Source: Cloeon dipterum
Taxonomy: Eukaryota; Arthropoda; Insecta; Ephemeroptera; Baetidae
Direction: 5' to 3'
Assembly: GCF_949628265.1 (NCBI RefSeq)
Contig: NC_088787.1
Span: 24,976,501 to 25,040,500 of the forward strand
DNA: 64,000 bases
Shown here: positions 1-17,600 of the stretch, piece after piece
How positions within the stretch are numbered: position 1 is the first letter of the stretch
How the letters are laid out: every line of letters starts with the position of its first letter
Notes under the pieces: generated by a model
The model's input: the letters and a program-made list of their open reading frames with translations, nothing else
Told to the model about the DNA's origin: nothing
The model's database searches: none
Translations under genes and position numbers: made by a program

Positions 1-875
1 AAATACAACGTACGGATTTTAAAAAAAAAATATCCCAGTCTGGATTTTTTTGTATATTGAAATATTTTTAAAAAAATCGATTTTTAGGGCAGTTTGCACT
101 TCCAAATCTCGAGTTCTAAACATCAGAATTGCAAAAACTAACCACCGTTAGACTCGTCCTCACCTGAACTAATGAGCCAAAGTGTTTAGGGGATGCTTTC
201 CTTCATTCCCTTTCAACCCGATTGCTACAATTTTGATAAAAAAAACCATGTTACCATACATGCTCTGGGCTTAAAAATACCTAAAATTATCGAAATTATC
301 CAAAAATTTCAATTAAATTATCACCATGTTGCACCCTACCCTGTCCCTTCTTTTAATAGGAAAATATTTTTAATTAAAATATTTATTAAAACAATAATCC
401 AGAATTATAAAATGTTTTACTTTTTTACGAGGTGATTGAAGTATAGAAGCTTAGGGTGTATATAGGGTGACCACCCCTAAACCATTCAGCCGGTCAGAGG
501 AGATCGAGACGAGTTCAATGGGGGTAGTATATTTAATTTTTGAGTAAAATTGTTTACGCTGCGGACAATTTTTTAGGCTAAATATTTATACTGTACATAC
601 ATGAAAGAAAGTATGCGTTTTAAAACAGTATCAAAATGAAAGTTATGCTATCTTGTTTGTTTGCCGTTGCGTAATTGCAAACTCGTACCCTTTTAATATG
701 CTTCCTATTTTTGCATTTACGTGGAATGTTCGTTTGGTTGTTTTGCCCATATCAAGATTTTTCAGCTTGGTCACCGCATCGTCCGCTTAGGACACGAATT
801 TTAGCATTGTGTTCCACCGCATTTCCCCTCAAAATAGAGTTTTGGCGGCATAATATCTCTCATCATCATATCACA
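1..875. other. AT-rich non-coding left edge
   Basis: No coding signal is convincing here. The short open frames have AT-driven, low-complexity translations. The stretch leads into the putative transposon end at 876. Confidence 0.6.
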
Positions 876-1415
876 CCCTGCGAAAAATCTTCATTGTTTT
901 AATATTAGGGTAATATTATTTCCCAATAACCATTATTGTTTTAATATTGGCGTCTAATGTTATATCAATGTGAAAATGTGACTTTTTTCAATATTGTTCT
1001 AATATTGGCACCAATATTGGCCGCTATCATTGCGTTATTATTAATTTCAAATGGAAATTAAATGATGTCCTAATTTCCGTAGAATATTGGTAATTAGGGG
1101 TTTTCTGAATGAGATACATAGTTTTATTTAATTATTTTATATTTTTATTATATCTAGACAAATTATTGTAACACTTGTAAGTCACAGAAGAGTTATATAA
1201 CTTATAAAAAATTATTTATACGTCATTTCACATAAAACAGTTGGGTTTCTCTCTAGTCACAGCATTCTAGTTTTACAATGTACATTGAAGTGCACAGCAG
1301 GGATTGAGACAAAGTCGTTGGGTTTAAGTAGGGAAATACTTAAAATCAGCACTACATAATACATGTTGGCCACTTAGTCAAATCGTCGTCCTGTCGGGAC
1401 ACAGAGCGACGTCGA

Positions 1416-1840
1416 CACTGGCATGAATAAGGGGTGGTCAGAAATTGATGAGGGACTTGTCATGTGTGCTGATGGCCTGAACTTTATATTATACAGAGCG
1501 GCTATTATTGTTTCCCATTTTTGTCACTGTCAATGCGGCCCGTCGGGCCGAACGATTCGACAAAATCAAAAGTGACACACTAATTAAAATTAATTTGGCA
1601 TTTAATAATAACTGTCAGCTCTAGCATTGTTATTAACGAATTTTGAAAAATTTAAATGCAAAATTAATTTTAATTAGAGTGCCACTTTTGATTTTCTCAA
1701 ATCGTTCGGCCCGACGGGCCGCATTGACAGTGACAAAAATGGGAAACAATAATGGCGGCTCTGTATAATATAAAGTTCAGGCCATTAGCACACATGACAA
1801 GTACCTCATCAATTTCTGACCGCCCTTTTTGGTGCCAGTG
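1416..1840. repeat. Foldback (palindromic) element, about 190-bp arms
   Basis: Bases 1416-1605 are repeated in inverted orientation at about 1652-1840, around a loop of about 46 bp. The arms differ by scattered substitutions and at least one single-base indel, so they have diverged since duplication. Each arm includes a GC-rich core (cggcccgtcgggccgaacga) in otherwise AT-rich sequence. The form resembles a palindromic MITE or a hairpin-RNA locus. The open frames on either strand are by-products of the repeat. Confidence 0.7.
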
Positions 1841-2375
1841 CTCATAAAAGTCATTAATATTTTTTAAGTCAAGGACCAAAGGTTCCAAAACGCCCAAATT
1901 AAAAAAAATGCAGTGAAGTGGTAGCAATAAGGTTTTTTTTATCAATTTTCACCAGTTTCTTGCAGGCCATGTTTTCACTTAAGTTTTCAATATTTTTCTA
2001 AATTGCTCATGCGACTAGAAAAATTGTCTGAGATAAATTTATTGAGAAATTGAGGCAAATGAAAATTTAAAAGGAAATATCTACTTGTAAATTTTGACCA
2101 CTCCGACCTCTAATTTTATATAATATTAATACCTAGGAGGAAATGACAAAAGTCAATTTAATGCGCAATAAATTGGTAAAAATTGAGTTGCTCAAACAGC
2201 AATTAAAAACCAGTGGAGAAAAATACCGGGTGAATACAAATGCAATTCTGCACGAACGCATGACGCAAGGACATAAAATTAATTATTTTGAGTTCCAAAG
2301 TAGTTTATTGGTGTGGCGGTACGTGGGGCCACTTTCGTGGAAGGTGGATGTTCATGGAGCTAGGGTAGTTCTCGA

Positions 2376-2613
2376 TCAGAAAAGACGATTAGGGCAGCAA
2401 CATGAGGAGAAAGTCCACAAGGTAAACGGGTGCGGGTCGTGGATGTCCTTGGGCACTAGGCGGCGACGTGAAAAGTGGCCCGGCTCAAAGCCGACGAACT
2501 TCGCCATCTTCTTGTCCAGCCGCGCATTGTCCTTGTCCCTCTTCCAGCTCGTTCATCGTCTGCTCCACAGGGTCGAAGCCATCCTCGCCCGGCCTGTCAA
2601 CGAAAAATTGCAT
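2376..2613 (-). pseudogene. Frameshifted coding remnant, family not recognised
   Basis: On the minus strand an ATG at 2613 opens a frame containing FDPVEQTMNELEE. Near 2540 the coding-like signal moves to another frame and continues as RDKDNARLDKKMAKFVGFEP and then GHFSRR, stopping at 2376. The two halves read as one charged, probably helical protein interrupted by a short deletion in a run of A and G. GC content is well above the surroundings. I do not recognise the family; it could be a captured host exon or a transposon protein fragment. It lies between the inverted ends at 876 and 3168. Confidence 0.35.
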
Positions 2614-3258
2614 CAAAATTCGATGTTGTATCAAAGTTACGGCTCGTTTTCTCACTGCGTGCAGCAGTAAAAATTTGTAACCGCGAATTGGAATGAAAAC
2701 AAAGTAAAAAACGAATAATTCTCATTACCTGTAATATTTGCTGAACGGTGCGTGTGTTGATAACATCAAGGATCCTTACATGGGTGTATTTTAAACTCTT
2801 AAGAGCAGACAAACGACTCGCAGAACGAAGAACAAAACGAAAATTGCATGAAGCGTAGCCGTTAGCCGTTCAGTGTTTGTTTCTTGATGCGGTGATGGCG
2901 GACGGAGTAGCAGAGTGTGCGACTCGTGCGACTCATGGATGCGCACGCATTCACGCATGCGCACTGATATCATTGAATTAACATTGGTGTAATATTAAAA
3001 CAAGCTTAAGATAATAACTTATTTACATTTGTTTTTCATTATTTTTTTAATATTACCGCAACATTGTGTTGCAATCATTTTTTATTCATCATTTATTAAC
3101 ATTATTCCAATAATGCTTATGATTAAATTATCATTGGTATTATTGGCTAATGAAGATTTTTCGCAGGGCAGGCTTACCATTGGTTCAATAATTTTAGGAA
3201 CATTATTTTTTAAAACAGTCATGACTTCACATGTTTGATTGCATCCGTATTTCTAGGG

Positions 3259-4377
3259 AGAGCCAAAAGTTCAGTATATGTGATATCATTTTCGTAAGCG
3301 TGTATACCGGATATACAGCTTTGCCTAATGTTCTTCCAACCTGGCGGAGGGCTGTTTTTGCACGTTCAAAATGTTCATCGCGTTGTGCAAGGTTTTCGCA
3401 ATTTTTATAGGTAGATGCGACTTGTCAGCTTTTTCCACTTGACTTTAACCAAAAGGATCACCCTTTACCGACATGGCAGTCTGCGTCCGTAGCCTTTTAC
3501 TTGATTTATTTTAAAATTATCGTACTTTTCTTTAAATCAGCAGTGCGACGTCACAACTTAAATTATTACGTGGCTCGCAAGCAACTCCAAATTCCCGGGG
3601 AACCATCGTTTTTGCGGCCGTAGCTTGTCCGAATATAACGCTCTTACAATTAGAGTTGTGCGAAAACCGCCTGCAATTTTGGCTACAGAGATGCGACTTG
3701 ATGGCGGTGTTTCGGGATGTTACACTTATGATATGTAATGACGTGAATTTTAAATATTATGGGACAATCCAGCGGTTCATTGCGCGGGTCCAAATTAAGC
3801 AAAAAATCATTGCGGGAGCTCACCTTCCACAGTGCGGTTCTAAATTCTGAATAAATCGCGGAAACCGAAAAATGTTGCTGTGGCGCTGCGCGGCGCCGCA
3901 CCGTTGCGGCTCTCTGCCAGAGCCAAATCCACTTAAAGGCGCCAATAATTAGCGATGATACCGACAAAACCACTTAAAAACAGTTCTCAGGTGGTGCGAC
4001 CGGTTGGTGACAGGCGAGGGTGAATAATCGTCGCAGTGTATCGTCAAATGTGACAGAAATCGCAGGAAAAAGCATTAAGAACGCGCCGCAGATAGGATTT
4101 CCGGTCGAGTTACCCTGAAAAAGGTCGTTTTGGTATTCCAGGTAAAAGTCGGAAAAAGACCTATCCGATGAGGGGTCGTGGTCGACGATGGGACTAAGGG
4201 CAGAATTTAAACACAAATCAACCAAAAATGGTGTGCTTGCGCGCAGGCCGTAAACACGCGCCCTTGTGCACGGCACACTACAGCTGCACCCTGCACATCA
4301 TCTCCGCGAGCGCAAAACAAAACAAAAAAAACACACACAAAATTAATTTTAGCAAAGTTCCAATGATTGAACTGTAA
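3259..4377 (+). repeat. Left arm of 1,119-bp inverted repeat
   Basis: This arm is the reverse complement of 6275-7393. Paired positions always add up to 10652, so no indel separates the arms, and the stretches I compared base by base, including both ends, were identical. The arm is richer in GC than its surroundings. Similarity stops abruptly at 3258/7394 and at 4378/6274. I found no family protein in it. Its longest open frame, on the minus strand, is described under the right arm. Confidence 0.93.
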
Positions 4378-4545
4378 CTCGAGAAAATTAATTAAAACTC
4401 CGGAAAAAAGTCAATTTTGAGGGTTAAAAATTCGAGGAGTGTCTCCTGAAGGGAGTTCGATCTCCAAACCCTTGCCACTTCCTTTAGACTAATAAATGCT
4501 ATATTTCCTGCGAATTTGAATAATTTTCACCGTTCCTAACTCGAG
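4378..4545 (-). repeat. Single inverted copy of the 162-bp satellite monomer
   Basis: CTCGAG at 4378 and again at 4540 are exactly 162 bp apart, and the sequence between is the reverse complement of one satellite monomer from the array at 8446-13617. It matches the rarer subtype with the agcatttattagtctaaagg and gacactcctcg variants. It begins at the first base after the left arm of the large inverted repeat. Confidence 0.9.
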
Positions 4546-6274
4546 AAAATTAAAACTTATTTTTTCCATTTTCAAAATTTTGACCGGCGGCTGGCGTGCC
4601 TGGCGAGCTAGAACCAAAGCGCCTGCATGGCCAAGATTTGGCGAGGCTGGCTGATGTAAGTGCTCTAGTATACGTTTCGATTTTTATTTAGAAGTCAAAT
4701 ATTTAAAAAATTATCAAGAAAAAAATTAATGTCGAACTGATTTGTTCAAAAGGGAAAAAAGGTAATATTAATCTGAAAAAAAATATTTATTGTTCTGAAC
4801 CTCTGACAAGAGTGAATTTTGAGGAACACACAGATTTTAGTAGCGCAACCATATTCAACTGTCAAATTTTCCCAGTTTTCCAAAATAATGAGGCCAGAGT
4901 AGGTCGATTACTGATGTATTTGACGTCACTCCAAACATTTCTGATGTCGTATAAATATACTAATCTACTAAAATACGCATAATCCGTATAATGAAAAATC
5001 TGTTGAAAATAAATGGCAGCTTCCTCGGTGAATAGCGAGCTTTATATTTTTCCGTATTTCTACACAACAGAAAAAATATCCTACTCAACTAGTTTCGGCT
5101 ACTGGTTCTAGTCCTAATTCATGAGCTTCCTCTCCCGACTAGGGGCTGAGCAGGACATTATTTCTGTAGAAATGCGGATAAAAGAACAGCTCGCTATCAG
5201 GGTTGTATTTGTATTAATAACACCACCCGATTTTTTCAACCACTGGTTTTTAACGGTTTCTACCACCCAATTTTTACCAATTTATTGCGCAAGAAATTCA
5301 AGAAATGAATTTATTCCATTTTCCCCTTATGGACATCTAAGATTTTCGGTGGAAAGTGGTCTAATCTTCCTCAACTGTACACATTTTTTTCTTTTAAATT
5401 GCCATATTTGCTGCCTCAATTTCTCCAAAAAGTTCCCTAAAAAAATTTTGAGGTCGAGGTCATCAGCAAATAATTAGAAAATTATTGAAAACGGAAATGC
5501 AAACATGGCCTGGAAGAAAATGGTAAAAAATTGAAAAAAATAACGTTCTTACCACTGCACTGTTTTTTTTAAATGCCGGTCTTTTGCAGCCCTGCTCTCT
5601 ATCCACCGAGGAAACTACCTTTTATTTCATTTGAAAATTATAAAAGTTCGGGGAGGGGGGGGGGGGGGGTTAGTGGGCCGCGGTGGCTCGGTGGGCCGCG
5701 AAAATCAACAGTCCCCGGTAAAAAATGGTGCCAGTCCGGGCCTGTCTAGAAACCAATTTTCAGATTTTTAGAGCTCATAGAAAAAAAAGAAAACTATTTT
5801 TTTGTATTTTCAGGCTTAGACACCTTCCTATTTCCGGCGGCAATATCTTGGGTCCAGGAAGAAAATTTAAAAAATAGATTTGGAGTCGATGAGGAATAGA
5901 TCTGGAATCTATTTGAGACTAAATATGAGCTGTCATATCAAATCAAAATCCTAGAACAAGTGAAGTTTTGAAGTTTGAAAAATGTTATCTTTTCGTTTTC
6001 CCATAATATGGATAACATGGGAAATTATGGGAATTTTTAGTACTAATTATAATTCGGCTACGATTACTACCAAATCGTCTTCTAATACACGAACAATGAT
6101 GCGAAACCTAGTTAGTATTTTTCTATCCCACATAAGCGAAATATGGCGATTTTTTAAAAGTCGGCATTGCTCTCCACACCAACGAGCAGCACATGGGCGC
6201 CGCTGACCTCCTTGGCCAATTTGTTTCCGTTTTGGCCATTGAATCACACTGGGGGAGTAACAAGTGACTTAAAT
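4546..6274. other. Spacer of the large inverted repeat, no gene seen
   Basis: This AT-rich stretch carries scattered short open frames with no recognisable product. It includes one copy of a dispersed repeat (5047-5205) and a run of about 18 G interrupted once near 5655-5672, a typical slippage site. The spacer has no counterpart elsewhere in the window apart from the satellite monomer at its left end and that dispersed repeat. Confidence 0.6.
5047..5205. repeat. Dispersed repeat, copy 1
   Basis: The stretch from ccgtatttctac through gggctgag to acagctcgctat resembles 37358-37450 (gtatttctacag, gttcggctgctggtt, gggctgag). More weakly it resembles 20240-20345 (cgtatttctatac, acagctcgctatg). 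Similarity is partial and was judged by eye; the element limits are unknown. Confidence 0.45.
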
Positions 6275-7393
6275 TTACAGTTCAATCATTGGAACTTTGC
6301 TAAAATTAATTTTGTGTGTGTTTTTTTTGTTTTGTTTTGCGCTCGCGGAGATGATGTGCAGGGTGCAGCTGTAGTGTGCCGTGCACAAGGGCGCGTGTTT
6401 ACGGCCTGCGCGCAAGCACACCATTTTTGGTTGATTTGTGTTTAAATTCTGCCCTTAGTCCCATCGTCGACCACGACCCCTCATCGGATAGGTCTTTTTC
6501 CGACTTTTACCTGGAATACCAAAACGACCTTTTTCAGGGTAACTCGACCGGAAATCCTATCTGCGGCGCGTTCTTAATGCTTTTTCCTGCGATTTCTGTC
6601 ACATTTGACGATACACTGCGACGATTATTCACCCTCGCCTGTCACCAACCGGTCGCACCACCTGAGAACTGTTTTTAAGTGGTTTTGTCGGTATCATCGC
6701 TAATTATTGGCGCCTTTAAGTGGATTTGGCTCTGGCAGAGAGCCGCAACGGTGCGGCGCCGCGCAGCGCCACAGCAACATTTTTCGGTTTCCGCGATTTA
6801 TTCAGAATTTAGAACCGCACTGTGGAAGGTGAGCTCCCGCAATGATTTTTTGCTTAATTTGGACCCGCGCAATGAACCGCTGGATTGTCCCATAATATTT
6901 AAAATTCACGTCATTACATATCATAAGTGTAACATCCCGAAACACCGCCATCAAGTCGCATCTCTGTAGCCAAAATTGCAGGCGGTTTTCGCACAACTCT
7001 AATTGTAAGAGCGTTATATTCGGACAAGCTACGGCCGCAAAAACGATGGTTCCCCGGGAATTTGGAGTTGCTTGCGAGCCACGTAATAATTTAAGTTGTG
7101 ACGTCGCACTGCTGATTTAAAGAAAAGTACGATAATTTTAAAATAAATCAAGTAAAAGGCTACGGACGCAGACTGCCATGTCGGTAAAGGGTGATCCTTT
7201 TGGTTAAAGTCAAGTGGAAAAAGCTGACAAGTCGCATCTACCTATAAAAATTGCGAAAACCTTGCACAACGCGATGAACATTTTGAACGTGCAAAAACAG
7301 CCCTCCGCCAGGTTGGAAGAACATTAGGCAAAGCTGTATATCCGGTATACACGCTTACGAAAATGATATCACATATACTGAACTTTTGGCTCT
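6275..7393 (-). repeat. Right arm of 1,119-bp inverted repeat
   Basis: Reverse complement of 3259-4377. On the plus strand it holds an open frame from 6376 to 6678 (100 codons to a TAA), which continues in the same frame for another 96 codons to 6969. The two form one frame of about 197 codons split by a single stop. The translation (for example FLVDLCLNSALSPIVDHDPS, later FKWIWLWQRAATVRRRAAPQ) matches no family I know. It may be an ancient coding exon or a chance frame in GC-rich repeat DNA. Confidence 0.93.
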
Positions 7394-8445
7394 TACTTTT
7401 GGTTAAGGAAGGCTGTGCAAAAGTGTAAACCGATCCTTTATTTTATATGTAGGAGCCAATAATTTATCAAAAAACGTCACAAGATGAATTGATTTTTTTG
7501 CTCTTTTTATCCCTGTCCGAGGAGCGGGAAGGGCGCGCACTGCACTAGCACGAATGCTGAAACCCGGGTCCCAATAACAGCGCGAACGGATAACATGGGC
7601 GCACCAGGCCGCACAGGGACCCAGCCCACTGAAGGGCCACTTGCCTTCGCACCGAGGACTGCATTGAAACGCTAGACATCGTCCCGTGAAGCCACGCATG
7701 CTGGAAAAAGGTGCAAACCAGCAAGTAGCGAGTTGGCGCCGGTTCGCCTCCAAGCCCGTTGAGAAATTTGAGCATTTCGACATTTCGAGTCACTATAAAC
7801 TAACCACCTTTTTGCCATGTCTGACATTGGGTAGCCAGTATTACATCTCCCAACTGCTCAAATTTACCTCCCATTGCTTTGACACTCCTTTGTTAATCGC
7901 ACACACTTGAAATTTGCTTCAACCTTTGAATTTGCGGCCGTAACTTGCCAATTCTTTACCGGTACTCTGCGCACCCCTGCGCATCTTCTGAAGGGTGGCT
8001 TACAATTAGTAGCCCGTTGAAGGAGTTTTTCCATGTTGGCACTTTCTGCAATATTAACCACCAAGCCCGCACCTGATCCCGTATTAATTTTTTTTTAATA
8101 TGATTCAATATATATCAGGTGCACGTTGCCCCCTGTTTACAGGGTCGTTCCTTAATACTTTGACATAAAAAACAACCTCGTAGAGCAGGTGCGAAATGAA
8201 GTTCATTTCTAGAGTTCAAAAAGGCGCTGAAAACATTTGTTTCCTCTAACAAATTTTTAAATTGATTGAATATCTCGATTTCAGACTATAATATTAATGT
8301 AGTAAAACATATACTATTTGTATACCCTCGTAAACAATAAAAATGTACACAATTAAACACTATATTATGTTTCAGAGATATATATTGTTATCTTTTTTCT
8401 ATAAATTTTTAAAACTTCATTTAATCGCTTTTTTAGCCAATTATT
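7394..8445. other. Region between inverted repeat and satellite; diverged arm fragment
   Basis: No gene is supported. Around 7930-8015 the sequence ttgcggccgtaacttgcc, followed by cttacaattag, echoes the arm sequence near 3614-3653 (ttgcggccgtagcttgtcc, then cttacaattag) in the same orientation as the left arm. This suggests an older, eroded relative of the arm next to the right copy. Confidence 0.4.
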
Positions 8446-11400
8446 TATTTTCTCGAGTTAGGAACGATTAAATTGGTTAAAACTCGCAAGGAAATATTGT
8501 ATTAATTAGTCTAAATGAATTGAGTAGAGGTTAGAGATCGAACTCCCTTCAGGAGCCACCCATCGAATTTTTAACCCTCAAAATTGACCCTTTTCCGGAG
8601 TTTTAATTAATTTTCTCGAGTTAGGAACGGTGAAAATTATTCAAACTCGCAGGAAATATTGCTTTTATCGGTTTAAATAAATTAAAAAGGGTTTGGAGAT
8701 CGAACTCCCTTCAGGAGCCACCCATCGAATTTTTAACCCTCAAAATTGACCCTTTTCCGGAGTTTTAATTAATTTTCTCGAGTTAGGAACGGTGAAAATT
8801 ATTCAAACTCGCAGGAAATATTGCTTTTATCGGTTTAAATAAATTAAAAAGGGTTTGGAGATCGAACTCCCTTCAGGAGCCACCCCTCGAATTTTTAACC
8901 CTCAAAATTGACCCTTTTCCGGAGTTTTAATTAATTTTCTCGAGTTAGGAACGGTGAAAATTATTCAAACTCGCAGGAAATATTGCTTTTATCGGTTTAA
9001 ATAAATTAAAAAGGGTTTGGAGATCGAACTCCCCTCAGGAGCCACCCCTCGAATTTTTAACCCTCAAAATTGACCCTTTTCCGGAGTTTTAATTAATTTT
9101 CTCGAGTTAGGAACGGTGAAATTCATTCAAACTCGCAAGAAATATTGCATTTATTAGTCTAAAGGAAGTGGCAAGGGTTTCGAGATCGAACTCCCCTCAG
9201 GAGCCACCCCTCGAATTTTTAATCCTCAAAATTGACTCTTTTCCGGAGTTTTAATTAATTTTCTCGAGTTAGGAACGGTGAAAATTATTCAAATTCGCAG
9301 GAAATATTGCTTTTATCGGTTTAAATAAATTAAAAAGGGTTTGGAGATCGAACTCCCCTCAGGAGCCACCCCTCGAATTTTTAACCCTCAAAATTGACCC
9401 TTTTCCGGAGTTTTAATTAATTTTCTCGAGTTAGGAACGGTGAAAATTATTCAAATTCGCAGGAAATATAGCATTTATTAGTCTAAAGGAAGTGGCAAGG
9501 GTTTGGAGATCGAACTCCCTTCAGGAGACACTCCTCGAATTTTTAACCCTCAAAATTGACCCTTTTCCGGAGTTTTAATTAATTTTCTCGAGTTAGGAAC
9601 GGTGAAATTCATTCAAACTCACAAGAAATATTGCATTTATTAGTCTAAAGGAAGTGGCAAGGGTTTGGAGATCGAACTCCCCTCAGGAGCCACCCCTCGA
9701 ATTTTTAATCCTCAAAATTGACTCTTTTCCGGAGTTTTAATTAATTTTCTCGAGTTAGGAACGGTGAAAATTATTCAAACTCGCAGGAAATATTGCTTTT
9801 ATCGGTTTAAATAAATTCAAAAGGGTTTGGAGATCGAACTCCCTTCAGGAGCCACCCCTCGAATTTTTAACCCTCAAAATTGACCCTTTTCCGGAGTTTT
9901 AATTAATTTTCTCGAGTTAGGAACGGTGAAAATTATTCAAACTCGCAGGAAATATTGCTTTTATAGGTTTAAATAAATTCAAAAGGGTTTGGAGATCGAA
10001 CTCCCTTCAGGAGCCACCCCTCGAATTTTTAACCCTCAAAATTGACCCTTTTCCGGAGTTTTAATTAATTTTCTCGAGTTAGGAACGGTGAAAATTATTC
10101 AAACTCGCAGGAAATATTGCTTTTATCGGTTTAAATAAATTCAAAAGGGTTTGGAGATCGAACTCTCTTCAGGAGCCACCCCTCGAATTTTTAACCCTCA
10201 AAATTGACCCTTTTCCGGAGTTTTAATTAATTTTCTCGAGTTAGGAACGGTGAAAATTATTCAAACTCGCAGGAAATATTGCTTTTATAGGTTTAAATAA
10301 ATTCAAAAGGGTTTGGAGATCGAACTCCCTTCAGGAGCCACCCCTCGAATTTTTAACCCTCAAAATTGACCCTTTTCCGGAGTTTTAATTAATTTTCTCG
10401 AGTTAGGAACGGTGAAAATTATTCAAACTCGCAGGAAATATTGCTTTTATAGGTTTAAATAAATTAAAAAGGGTTTGGAGATCGAACTCCCTTCAGGAGC
10501 CACCCCTCGAATTTTTAACCCTCAAAATTGACCCTTTTCCGGAGTTTTAATTAATTTTCTCGAGTTAGGAACGGTGAAAATTATTCAAACTCGCAGGAAA
10601 TATTGCTTTTATCGGTTTAAATAAATTAAAAAGGGTTTGGACATCGAACTCCCTTCAGGAGCCACCCATCGAATTTTTAACCCTCAAAATTGACCCTTTT
10701 CCGGAGTTTTAATTAATTTTCTCGAGTTAGGAACGGTGAAAATTATTCAAACTCGCAGGAAGTATTGCTTTTATCGGTTTAAATAAATTAAAAAGGGTTT
10801 GGAGATCGAACTCCCTTCAGGAGCCACCCCTCGAATTTTTAACCCTCAAAATTGACCCTTTTCCGGAGTTTTAATTAATTTTCTCGAGTTAGGAACGGTG
10901 AAAATTATTCAAACTCGCAGGAAATATTGCTTTTATAGGTTTAAATAAATTCAAAAGGGTTTGGAGATCGAACTCCCTTCAGGAGCCACCCCTCGAATTT
11001 TTAACCCTCAAAATTGACCCTTTTCCGGAGTTTTAATTAATTTTCTCGAGTTAGGAACGGTGAAAATTATTCAAACTCGCAGGAAATATTGCTTTTATAG
11101 GTTTAAATAAATTAAAAAGGGTTTGGAGATCGAACTCCCTTCAGGAGCCACCCCTCGAATTTTTAACCCTCAAAATTGACCCTTTTCCGGAGTTTTAATT
11201 AATTTTCTCGAGTTAGGAACGGTGAAAATTATTCAAACTCGCAGGAAATATTGCTTTTATCGGTTTAAATAAATTCAAAAGGGTTTGGAGATCGAACTCT
11301 CTTCAGGAGCCACCCCTCGAATTTTTAACCCTCAAAATTGACTCTTTTCCGGAGTTTTAATTAATTTTCTCGAGTTAGGAACGGTGAAAATTATTCAAAC

Positions 11401-13617
11401 TCGCAGGAAATATTGCTTTTATAGGTTTAAATAAATTCAAAAGGGTTTGGAGATCGAACTCCCTTCAGGAGCCACCCCTCGAATTTTTAACCCTCAAAAT
11501 TGACCCTTTTCCGGAGTTTTAATTAATTTTCTCGAGTTAGGAACGGTGAAAATTATTCAAACTCGCAGGAAATATTGCTTTTATAGGTTTAAATAAATTA
11601 AAAAGGGTTTGGAGATCGAACTCCCTTCAGGAGCCACCCCTCGAATTTTTAACCCTCAAAATTGACCCTTTTCCGGAGTTTTAATTAATTTTCTCGAGTT
11701 AGGAACGGTGAAAATTATTCAAACTCGCAGGAAATATTGCTTTTATAGGTTTAAATAAATTAAAAAGGGTTTGGAGATCGAACTCCCTTCAGGAGCCACC
11801 CCTCGAATTTTTAACCCTCAAAATTGACCCTTTTCCGGAGTTTTAATTAATTTTCTCGAGTTAGGAACGGTGAAAATTATTCAAACTCGCAGGAAATATT
11901 GCTTTTATCGGTTTAAATAAATTCAAAAGGGTTTGGAGATCGAACTCCCTTCAGGAGCCACCCCTCGAATTTTTAACCCTCAAAATTGACCCTTTTCCGG
12001 AGTTTTAATTAATTTTCTCGAGTTAGGAACGGTGAAAATTATTCAAACTCGCAGGAAATATTGCTTTTATAGGTTTAAATAAATTAAAAAGGGTTTGGAG
12101 ATCGAACTCCCTTCAGGAGCCACCCCTCGAATTTTTAACCCTCAAAATTGACCCTTTTCCGGAGTTTTAATTAATTTTCTCGAGTTAGGAACGGTGAAAT
12201 TCATTCAAACTCGCAAGAAATATAGCATTTATTAGTGTAAAGGAAGTGGCAAGGGTTTGGAGATCGAACTCTCTTCAGGAGACACTCCTCGAATTTTTAA
12301 CCCTCAAAATTGACTCTTTTCCGGAGTTTTAATTAATTTTCTCGAGTTAGGAACGGTGAAATTCATTCAAACTCGCAAGAAATATAGCATTTATTAGTGT
12401 AAAGGAAGTGGCAAGGGTTTGGAGATCGAACTCTCTTCAGGAGACACTCCTCGAATTTTTAACCCTCAAAATTGACTCTTTTCCGGAGTTTTAATTAATT
12501 TTCTCGAGTTAGGAACGGTGAAAATTATTCAAACTCGCAGGAAATATTGCTTTTATCGGTTTAAATAAATTAAAAAGGGTTTGGAGATCGAACTCCCTTC
12601 AGGAGCCACCCCTCGAATTTTTAACCCTCAAAATTGACTCTTTTCCGGAGTTTTAATTAATTTTCTCGAGTTAGGAACGGTGAAAATTATTCAAACTCGC
12701 AGGAAATATTGCTTTTATAGGTTTAAATAAATTAAAAAGGGTTTGGAGATCGAACTCCCTTCAGGAGCCACCCCTCGAATTTTTAACCCTCAAAATTGAC
12801 CCTTTTCCGGAGTTTTAATTAATTTTCTCGAGTTAGGAACGGTGAAATTCATTCAAACTCGCAAGAAATATAGAATTTATTAGTGTAAAGGAAGTGGCAA
12901 GGGTTTGGAGATCGAACTCTCTTCAGGAGACACTCCTCGAATTTTTAACCCTCAAAATTGACTCTTTTCCGGAGTTTTAATTAATTTTCTCGAGTTAGGA
13001 ACGGTGAAAATTATTCAAACTCGCAGGAAATATTGCTTTTATCGGTTTAAATAAATTAAAAAGGGTTTGGAGATCGAACTCATTTCAGGAGCCACCCATC
13101 GAATTTTTAACCCTCAAAATTGACCCTTTTCCGGAGTTTTAATTAATTTTCTCGAGTTAGGAACGGTGAAAATTATTCAAACTCGCAGGAAATATTGCTT
13201 TTATCGGTTTAAATAAATTAAAAAGGGTTTGGAGATCGAACTCCCTTCAGGAGCCACCCCTCGAATTTTTAACCCTCAAAATTGACCCTTTTCCGGAGTT
13301 TTAATTAATTTTCTCAAGTTAGGAACGGTGAAATTCATTCAAACTTGCAGGAAATATTGCATTTATTAGTTTGAAGGAAGTGGCAAGGGTTTGGAGATCG
13401 AACTCCCTTCAGGAGCCACCCCTTGAATTTTTAACCCTCAAAATTGACCCTTTTTCGGAGTTTTATTTAATTTTCTCAGGTTAGGAACGTTGAAATTAAT
13501 TCAAAATCTCAGGAAATATTGTTTTCATCGGTTTTAATAAATTGCAAAGGGTTCCAAGATTGAACTCCCTTCAGGAACCACCCCTCGAATTTTAAGCCCT
13601 TAATTTGCACCCTTTTC
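8446..13617 (+). repeat. Tandem satellite, 162-bp monomer, about 31 copies
   Basis: CTCGAG marks recur at 8452-8457, then end at 8620, 8782, 8944, 9106 and so on, to a degenerate copy ending at 13480. The last 30 units keep an exact 162-bp period (8620 + 30 x 162 = 13480); the first unit is 163 bp and the last is truncated near 13617. Common elements are ttttctcgagttaggaacgg, ggagatcgaactcccttcag and ttttccggagttttaattaa. Edge units are the most diverged. Two subtypes occur: a common one with gcttttatcggtttaaat and a rarer one with gcatttattagtctaaagg. No open frame runs through it. Confidence 0.97.
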
Positions 13618-14626
13618 TTTTGCTCAAATTTTTATTTTACGAATAAGAGTTGCATTTTACTTCACTTGGGCAGTATCCGATTCACCCCCATCCCTTAAAT
13701 TTATGCATACGACCCTCTTTTTGCGTTAGAAATTTTTGGTTGGCAGCATTGCTGAAAAAGCGGCTATCTTCTCGCGAGCGGCTAACTCGAACGGCTATCT
13801 TCACGATCGTGAGTAGAAGGATGATTTAATCAATCGTCGAGCTCAAATTTTGGCGGGACTGATCTTTATCAATCTCTATGAGATTCACGTCACTGGTGCA
13901 AATTTGAGTATTTTTTTCGGTTTTTACAACTATTTACCACGTTTTCCGTCAGCAGAATAGAACTGAAACTAGTGCGTCTACGCGTCTCCAGTTCTGCTAT
14001 TGCTCTCCTGATCAGCTGCATGTTTCATTTTGCCATGCCATTGACCTCCGTGTGATATCATGATATTCGTTTTTCAGACCTTTATGTATGTATTTCAATT
14101 CTAAACATCATTTAGAGCATTATTGCCAATATTGTTTATCTAAACACATAACACAACACTGGATTAAAACTTGTTTTCAATTGTGCTTTTTATATTTTTA
14201 ACTGACTGAGTGCTAGGTATTGGACTATTAACTATGTTGAGCGCCTTAAATGTATTATTTTTCTACTTGGTTGATCGCAGTAATAATTATTATTACTAAT
14301 ACTATACACAATTTTTGTATTTTTCATCAAATATATAGTATTAAATTTCTAAGGTTCGAGAAAAAGAATGGTAACATATTATTATGCAACTAAAGGCATA
14401 CAAAATCTACCATCATAATTAATTAAAAACAATATTTTTGTTGCAATAAATTTTGGTTGAAATTTATGAGTTATTTATCCTAAAATAAAATAAAAAACAA
14501 TACTTCTGTCGCACTTTTAACTATTTATTAGTGTTTAAATCAGGGTTATAAAAATTGTAACAATGAATTTTTCCGATTTTTCGATACAAAGTTAAGGCAA
14601 AATGGATTATCAATTATCATTATTTA
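13618..14626. other. AT-rich gap between satellite and ornithine aminotransferase
   Basis: About 1 kb with no supported gene. It probably includes the 3' flank of the aminotransferase gene, which is on the minus strand and ends at 14627. An AATAAA hexamer on the minus strand near 14524-14529 is a possible downstream poly(A) signal. Confidence 0.55.
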
Positions 14627-14628: not shown

Positions 14629-17600
14629 ATTTTTTGAAGGCGAGTACCGAATTGACAATAATCTCAATGCTCTGCTTGATCTGTTCTTCCGTGATAACGA
14701 GCGGAGGAGCCAGTCTGATGATGTGTCCGTGCGTTGGCTTGGCCAGCAGTCCCTTTTCCTTCATGTGCAAGCAAACCTCCCACGCATCAATTTCTGCAAA
14801 CGTTTCCAATAGACAACCAAAATTTAATTAATTAAATTGCTTTACCTGGATTCATCACAATTGCGTTGAGCAGTCCCTTGCCCCTGACCTGGGTCACGAT
14901 TTCCTGAGGCAGTTGCTTGCGGAGCTCATCGCGGAAAATATTTCCCAGTCGTTCGGCGTTCTGAGCCATGTTCTCGTCCTCGAGCACCTGCAGCGCCTCC
15001 ATGGCCACCCTGCAGGCCAGCGCGTTGCCACCGTAAGTGGAGCCGTGCTCACCTGGCTTAATGCACAGCATCACGTCGTCGTTGGCCAGCACAGCGCTCA
15101 CCTGGAAATCCGAGTGTTATTTTTGTGCTTCTTGCTGTGAGCTTGGTATTTTTACATCGAAATAAATTCGATATTTTTTTCCACTTAAACTGCGTGCGTC
15201 AAACAATATAAGATAACAGAATATAATCTTTGACCTTGTTTCCTCTCATAATATATTAGGAAACTGTTTGCTATCTGAAAAATTCATCACGGGCACACTT
15301 TACATACATAATTAATTTGATATGAATGAAGAAAATATTCAACCAAATCTCCCTCTTGCCCAAATGTGCCAAAAACTTTTTTTTATAATTTTAATTAGTT
15401 ATTGAATCTTAAATCTCAAAAGCATCCCTAGATAAAAAAATCTCCAGCGCGTTAAATTATTTTCTCTGCCGACAAAATTTTTTCCATAATTTTGGGCGTG
15501 GACGACATTTGTTTGATAACCTTTGCAAGCAGGTATGCCTCAAAAATACTCACAGGCAGGATTCCACCACTGAGAGCTTTGCCGAGGATGAGGATATCTG
15601 GCTTGACACCCTCGTGGTCGACTGCGAGGCGGCGTCCGGTCCTGGCGAGCCCGGTCTGTACCTCGTCGGCGATCCAGAGGACATTGTGCTTATCGCACAG
15701 CTGCCGAATGCCCTTGAGGTAGCCATCCTTGGGCACCACGACCCCGGCCTCGCCTTGGATGGGCTCCACCATGAAGGCGCACACGTTGGGGTCCTCCAGG
15801 GCTTTCTCTAGAGCCTCCAGGTCATCGTAGGGCACCAGCTTGAAGCCTGGCATGAACGGCCCGAAGCCCTTGTAGCTTGAGGGGTCCGTCGATGAGGAGA
15901 TAGCGGACATAGTGCGGCCCCAGAAATTACCCTCAGCGAATATGATGACAGCTTGGTTGTCTGGCACGCCCTTCTTCATGTAAGCCCACTTTCTGGCCAG
16001 CTTGCATGCTGTTTCGCCGCCCTCGACGCCTGTGTTCATCGGGAGGAGCTTCTGGTAGCCGAAAAGGTTCGTCGCCATCTCTGCATATTCTCCAAGCAAA
16101 TCACTGAGAACAAAATATTTTTAAATATTAATGTCTAGTCCGTCCTTAAACACTTTCCTGTTGACCAAAATATGAGTCTATGTCCCTGTAAAATTTAAAG
16201 TTCTAAAAAGCACATCAATGTTCAACACGTACTAAACTCATCAACAATGTGTTCTTAAGCATGCAGCTTATTTTCATCAGACAAAAAGGTTGCATCATAG
16301 TTTAGATTCTTACAATTTCAATATAAAATTCGAGGAATTTCTTCCACGAAGGGAAAGAAAAAAATACTTTATGAGTGGAAAGTAAGGTGTTGGCCTCATT
16401 ATAAATAGTTTTTGCGGTTTTTACAAACCAGTAAAACGCCCTGGAAGTGAGGGTCAGCTTGCTGGCCTGTTCCTGCAGCGCGGCCAAGAGGCGGGGGTGG
16501 CAGTGGCCTTGGTTGACTGCCGAGTAGGCGCTCAGAAAGTCCAAATACTTGCGTCCCTCCATATCCCACATGTGCACCCCTAAAAATGAATATTCACTTT
16601 CACCAAACTCGCACGGAAGCCGTTCAATTTTGTACCTTTCGCCTTGCAGATGGCCACCGGCAGCGGGTGGTAGTTGTGGGCGCTGAACTTCTCCTCCCTG
16701 TGCATGACATCTTCAGAGCTGATCTCCTGCATCTTCTTCAAAGGTGCTCCCTGCGACATGACGGTGAGTTACTTTCCAGCTTCTATTTCGCGACAAAATT
16801 GGCTGCGAAGAGAGCAATCGATTGTGTTGTAGGGAAAACCGCAGCACACACACCACACACACGCTCTCTCTAAAAATAATTACACCTGCCGGCGTTTTTG
16901 CTCCGCGTGCTCTTTTATTGTCACTCTTAGAGAGCGATCCTCACGCATCCTAGGTGTAAACGCATGATCTTTGTGCACCAATAGCGTCCAAGACCTGCCC
17001 CAATGTACAAACAAAAGCAGCAACTACTATACCCTCACGCCAAAATAGACTCATTGCCAGCCACTCCTAAAAACCTCCTCGCACCCCCGCGGCCGTAAAA
17101 GAAACGAAAGAAACCCACGTATGCGCTAGATTATCCATTCAATGCGGTCGTCTTGTTAGGAAAAATAGAAAATGTTTTAAATAGAAAATAAATTAATTAC
17201 TGTGAGAATAAACAACAATATAATTTTGCAGAATATTTTTGATAATATGTTTATGAAAACCCTTCAACAGTCCATGAATTTGGAACAAGTTAGGATTAAA
17301 TTTAAAAAATACCTTGTTTAAAATTCAAAGAATTGGATCTCTTGAGGCCTACGTCGTTGTGACGCGAGTGTTTAGTTCCAATTGAAGTAGATATTTTCAT
17401 GTAATAGTCTCACATGGTTTACTTTCAAAACAATTTTTCTCGATATCACTATTGCTCAATACAGTGAGATTTTTTAGTCTTACAAATTAAAATGTTGCTT
17501 CATGCTACATTTCCAAAACGTATTATTAATTTATTGGACACCATTGGTGTACGCGACTCAATTACAATTTCCACCATATATAAAGAGCTGTTATATTTAA

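Follow-up and report, generated by a model that had tools for sequence, protein, structure and literature searches.

A perfect inverted repeat in the mayfly Cloeon dipterum lies inside a larger, young DNA transposon with satellite arrays at its ends

The window analysed here is a 64,000-nucleotide stretch of the Cloeon dipterum genome (contig NC_088787.1, C2:24976501-25040500; the genome searched comprises 190.1 Mb in 10 contigs, of which those named below are C1 to C5). Close to its start lie two inverted arms, 3259-4377 and 6275-7393, of 1119 bp each, which align to each other with no mismatch and no indel. A repeat scan recovers the same arm pair, and the spacer between the arms measures 1897 bp. 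An earlier model-made reading of the letters (the sequence-only reading) had described identical, indel-free 1,119-bp arms at these positions around a spacer of about 1.9 kb, and its description is borne out. A perfect match over 1119 bp is beyond chance, and it stops abruptly beyond the outer and inner ends alike. This inverted repeat forms the interior of a larger DNA transposon that moved recently and has satellite arrays at its ends. The transposon, one of five young copies in the genome, is 20,567 bp long; it begins outside the window, at C2:24969744, and ends at window position 13810. Its parts are listed below in window positions, unless C2 is written; a strand is given where one was assigned.

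About C2:24969937-24975745, outside the window: left array of inverted 162-bp repeats (array search)
1-13810: portion of the transposon within the window, with the left end outside it at C2:24969744
1-875: first part in the window of core segment X; these 875 bp are found at 99.9% in the C3 (12.3 Mb) and C4 (22.4 Mb) copies
876-3168: later 2.29-kb insertion splitting X, with inverted ends CCCTGCGAAAAATCTTCATT and an apparent 2-bp target-site duplication (TSD), CA, read by eye
3169-3258: remainder of segment X
3259-4377, plus strand: left arm of the inner inverted repeat (arm alignment, repeat scan)
4375-4553, minus strand: single piece of the 162-bp repeat, 1.1 units, oriented like the left array and opposite to the right array
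4554-6274, plus strand: spacer (spacer search), of which 4554-5744 is a dispersed repeat
6275-7393, minus strand: right arm of the inner inverted repeat (arm alignment, repeat scan)
7394-8442, plus strand: core flank segment, present in all five young copies
8443-13617, plus strand: right array, 31.9 copies of the 162-bp repeat (repeat scan)
13618-13810, minus strand: terminal segment of the transposon, whose outermost bases, reading inwards, are ACGATCGTGAAG
13811-13819: TSD GAGTAGAAG, with an exact copy directly left of C2:24969744

The transposon has precise ends and terminal segments of about 193 bp, the left end reading ACGAATGTGAAG. Arrays of the ~162-bp repeat adjoin each end and are mutually inverted. 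The inner satellite piece at 4375-4553 is an inverted fragment of the tandem repeat that fills 8443-13617. Two simpler descriptions of the locus were rejected: the arms are not transposon ends, and the arms plus spacer are not a 4.1-kb transposon with long terminal inverted repeats (TIRs), since in both cases conserved sequence runs outwards to the TSD-bounded ends. The absence of any duplication, as read by eye, in the bases adjoining 3259 and 7393 also counts against a 4.1-kb long-TIR transposon.

We searched the genome with the arm (45 matches listed, with the best 40 of 608 candidates scored, so that the counts are lower bounds) and with the spacer (60 matches, with the best 40 of 1176 candidates scored). 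At least eight near-full-length arms at about 100% identity were found. Two arms each are carried by the window copy on C2 and by copies at C3:12.32 Mb and C4:22.40 Mb, and one arm each by copies at C1:16.98 Mb and C4:19.38 Mb. Diverged stretches of the arm, 78-97% identical, are also among the matches listed, on C4:33.1-33.5 Mb. The listed arm matches from outside the element family are dispersed repeats that match in part, at 69-81%, and for the most part cover the arm's inner portion. The spacer search returned the same five young copies and many matches, mostly at 80-90%, to the first 1191 bases of the spacer.

All five young copies, on contigs C1 to C4, end in a common terminal segment, inverted between the two ends, beyond which the flanks are unrelated. 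Each is bounded by an exact 9-bp TSD: GAGTAGAAG for the window copy on C2 (span 20,567 bp), CCGTTTGTG on C1 (13,480 bp), ATCACACCG on C3 (14,729 bp), GCGTCTACC for the 22.4-Mb copy on C4 (12,447 bp) and AAGAGACAG for the 19.4-Mb copy on C4 (9,431 bp). Inverted arrays of the ~162-bp repeat stand at both ends of every young copy, single arrays measuring 2.3-5.8 kb. The gap from the outer end of the arm to the array is constant at ~1050 bp in all five, the junctions are conserved, and in all two-armed copies X adjoins the other arm. In pairwise comparisons of the five copies, the shared core of 3,885-3,890 bp shows 1-5 substitutions and 1-12 gap columns (3,881-3,889 aligned bp). The very recent origin that had been suggested for the repeat is thus supported, the copies standing only these few changes apart in ~3.9 kb.

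Youth alone can explain the perfect arms. Ongoing gene conversion, also proposed earlier, finds one point in its favour, a variant at 4332 and 6320 that only the window copy has, in each of its two arms. This site borders on an A-run and a CA repeat, which is why we consider it weak evidence for conversion between arms.

The sequence-only reading had recognised neither 4375-4553 as a piece of the 162-bp repeat nor, having run no searches, the recurrence of the structure elsewhere in the genome. The dispersed repeat at 4554-5744 starts at the junction of satellite piece and spacer and has many other copies, mostly at 80-90% identity. Another dispersed repeat, of ~390 bp, occupies window 7493-7889 and is very abundant, at ~91%, on all five large contigs (best 40 of 2531 candidates scored). 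The 2.29-kb insertion in X is missing from the C3 copy, which has an empty site, and from the C4 22.4-Mb copy, which aligns continuously to C3; inside it, at window 1429-1828, is a second inverted repeat with 177-bp arms at 94%, 46 bp apart. The gene content includes a class III aminotransferase, a ligand-gated ion channel and a ubiquitin-conjugating enzyme; two open reading frames (ORFs) at window 15455-16712, minus strand, match the class III aminotransferase and lie less than 2 kb from the right end of the transposon.

The young copies come in two forms. In the two-armed form the left array is followed by X, an arm, a single satellite piece, the spacer, the second arm in inverted orientation, the flank and the right array; in the one-armed form it is followed by the spacer, then by the arm, the flank and the right array. 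Since the left array and the inner satellite piece share one orientation, their recombination would remove X and one arm and leave exactly the one-armed form. Most likely, then, the two one-armed copies, at C1 and at C4 19.4 Mb, derive by such a deletion. Because the three two-armed copies share the X/arm and arm/satellite junctions, the arms would have been duplicated in inverted form once, before the three dispersed. Their near-perfect identity would reflect youth, perhaps aided by arm-to-arm conversion. An older relative at C4:33.44 Mb (33.436-33.4455 Mb) also has X beside an arm, which by parsimony, though not as proof, favours deletion over gain. In this relative a piece of spacer beside the X/arm segment is flipped, as crossing-over between inverted arms would give.

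The same termini define a wider family. A search with the terminus pattern, allowing up to 3 mismatches, gave 38 matches against 0 for a reversed control pattern, and the family termini occur at 36 places, all of them scored. A 14.8-kb relative at C3:10.825 Mb has 161-bp arrays of 11.8 and 43.9 copies, one per end, which are ~76% identical to the window's 162-bp repeat over about 105 bases. It is flanked by an exact 9-bp TSD, TTGTTTTCG, as read by eye, and holds no ORF longer than 189 aa. A family member at C5:13625242-13629350 amounts to hardly more than two arrays, one short and one long, joined head to head around next to no core, and no exact 9-bp TSD was found at it. Arrays of the 162-bp repeat also occur near two contig ends (C4:36.29-36.37 Mb and C3:0.038-0.040 Mb; listed matches 82-88%), and these are possibly satellite arrays related to the element.

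The ORFs scanned in the window copy show no recognisable coding domain. Of the 17 ORFs with 80 aa or more that were listed for window 1-12000, Pfam was searched with 14, the other three being right-arm duplicates of scanned ORFs. None of the 14, including four inside the 2.29-kb insertion and the three arm ORFs, matched a Pfam family above cut-off. The weak matches seen were to DUF5671 (14.2 bits, cut-off 28.4), Alba (15.3 against 25) and Rpp20 (15.3 against 24.6); the best score of an arm ORF was 14.2 bits against 28.4. Rfam gave no match in the window and ARAGORN no tRNA. The genome holds nine MULE-domain matches, of which five are a near-identical 392-aa frame. The terminal segment gave only chance-level matches to the nine 3.3-kb loci around these matches, loci that stop short of the element ends.

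The five near-identical loci belong to a transposase-coding MULE family, whose protein has MULE, Transposase_mut and SWIM domains (PF10551 and PF04434 for MULE and SWIM). We read the ends of two of them, at C1:23.18-23.20 Mb and C3:34.58-34.60 Mb. Each is bounded on either side by tandem arrays of a 174-bp unit, inverted to each other, and by a 9-bp TSD read by eye (TATTTATAA for C1, AACCAAAAC for C3). Inside the arrays there are two inverted 2,021-bp arms, 99.6% identical, in the C1 copy and one arm in the C3 copy. The MULE family is thus like the window family in its inverted terminal arrays, its 9-bp TSDs and its one- and two-armed copies, but it codes for a MULE and SWIM transposase, and its termini, in the two copies read, and its repeat unit have no detectable similarity to those of the window family. 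Since these match at chance level only, the MULE family is a precedent for the design rather than a demonstrated helper.

An assembly fold-back at the window locus, raised in the sequence-only reading, could produce arms as perfect as those of the window copy. It is contradicted by the same two-armed structure on C3 and C4, with different flanks and different exact TSDs, and is hardly tenable: a misassembly would need the same breakpoints at all three places. In addition, a single homopolymer base distinguishes the two arms of the C4 22.4-Mb copy, and the sequences beyond the two window arms are unlike each other. It is also improbable, if less so, that the repeat is a hairpin-RNA (hpRNA) locus whose arms are transcribed through and diced to small interfering RNAs (siRNAs) that silence a target. 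The arms do have the long inverted repeat of such a locus and would, if transcribed, fold into a hairpin of more than 1 kb, and an hpRNA of flies may have arms that consist of transposon sequence, as PMC10317233 describes. According to the same source, what identifies an hpRNA locus in flies is its Dcr-2-dependent small RNAs, which are mostly 21 nt long (PMC10317233). Here, however, a mobile element bears the arrangement at three sites, the three arm ORFs reach no Pfam cut-off (best 14.2 against 28.4 bits), and the arm matches listed outside the element family (best 40 of 608 scored) are dispersed repeats at 69-81%. On present evidence, the inverted repeat is probably not a gene-silencing hairpin locus. 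The sequence-only reading had also named plain transposon ends as an outcome of a search for further copies. Such copies exist and this case comes closest to the truth, but the arms are internal and are not the ends.

The feature is very probably a young, non-autonomous transposon of the Foldback type with satellite arrays next to its ends, and probably one that belongs to the Mutator (MULE) superfamily. The characters of a Foldback element, namely inverted tandem-repeat ends, precise ends with a TSD and dispersed copies, are found in all five young copies. Foldbacks mostly seem to be Mutator members, as stated in PMC4079207, and the 9-bp TSD falls in the MULE range of 8-11 bp (PMC6446971). 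We can only infer membership of Mutator, from the design and the TSD length, because no transposase was found between the window family's own termini. Its mobility would have depended on a transposase acting in trans, able to recognise these termini and to make 9-bp staggered cuts. Alternatively, a Foldback-like element of another superfamily, for example P (as Galileo) or hAT, might have evolved its long ends independently. Long repetitive ends do occur in unrelated superfamilies, Galileo being placed in P according to PMC3573991, and no transposase was found for the window family, MULE being the only superfamily searched. We regard this origin as rather unlikely, given the 9-bp TSDs in all five young copies and the MULE elements of the same genome that share both design and TSD length. 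TSDs of the P type are shorter than 9 bp.

Several results weigh against the Mutator assignment and the proposed history. None of the nine MULE matches lies between the family's listed paired termini, in a search that covered MULE and no other transposase superfamily. Comparison of the family termini with the true ends of the C1 and C3 MULE copies gave chance-level matches only, as did that of the 162-bp unit with the 174-bp unit. Seven of eight other paired-terminus relatives were read without a convincing exact 9-bp TSD, one exact 9-mer among these seven sitting within a TTG run, and only the C3:10.825 Mb relative has an exact one; two further terminus pairs, at C4:32.84 Mb and C2:14.17 Mb, are not included in this count. 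The direction from long form to short form would follow from parsimony only. Finally, the C4:33.44 Mb relative is a patchwork of segments at about 86-98% that fits no simple scheme, and any ordering of it would be tentative.

Inner palindromes occur in two unrelated families of one genome, with 1119-bp and 2,021-bp arms and with one- and two-armed copies in each. Speculatively, the element may act as a satellite that moves about and gives rise to nested inverted repeats: it would take kilobase satellite arrays to chromosome arms and seed new ones there, the arrays would drive gain and loss of the inner palindrome, arm-to-arm conversion would keep the palindrome near perfect, and, if the palindrome were read through, long double-stranded RNA would restrain the element's own family. 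We hold this whole scheme to be rather unlikely. More directly, the window element indicates that a perfect kilobase palindrome can reside in a transposon and be spread through the genome. The relatives of the 162-bp repeat near two contig ends make the seeding of satellite DNA by a transposon testable in this genome. For annotation, copies elsewhere should be examined before such inverted repeats are labelled hairpin-RNA loci or assembly errors.

The window family is a further family of an already known style of mobile element, and is notable for its size, its nested palindrome, the parallel family in the same genome and its link to satellite DNA. The nearest description that we found in the literature, in searches that were not directed at the family's own sequence, is that of Tetris of Drosophila virilis (PMC4079207), beside which it is a further case of a mobile element bearing satellite-like arrays. 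As described there, Tetris is likewise non-coding, with no conserved ORF, has a flanking domain and ~220-bp tandem repeats in its inverted ends, a variable middle domain and 8-10-bp TSDs, and is placed in Mutator by inference; its repeats have seeded satellite arrays (PMC4079207). The inverted ends described for Tetris are at most 1,735 bp long, whereas the window family has single arrays of 2.3-5.8 kb in elements of 9.4-20.6 kb, and three of its five young copies have a 1119-bp inverted repeat nested in their core. An arthropod MULE survey of 2026 gives full-length elements of 1.4-10.0 kb (PMC13359780). Tm1, a Mutator/Foldback element of root-knot nematodes, is similar in its composite inverted ends, its variable tandem-repeat number and its mostly 9-bp TSDs, but by the same account its unit is ~14 bp, its termini are different and transposase-coding members are described (PMC3169594). 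Rehavkus shares the 9-bp TSD, a minisatellite beside an end and arthropods among its hosts; its minisatellite is described before the 3' TIR, in passages that say nothing about the opposite end, and the window family has arrays at both ends; a PHD-finger transposase such as that of Rehavkus was not seen in the window family (PMC6446971). Galileo of Drosophila resembles the window family in its long, internally repetitive ends and in the structural turnover for which recombination and conversion have been proposed, but it is assigned to the P superfamily in that source (PMC3573991), whereas all five young copies of the window family have TSDs of 9 bp.

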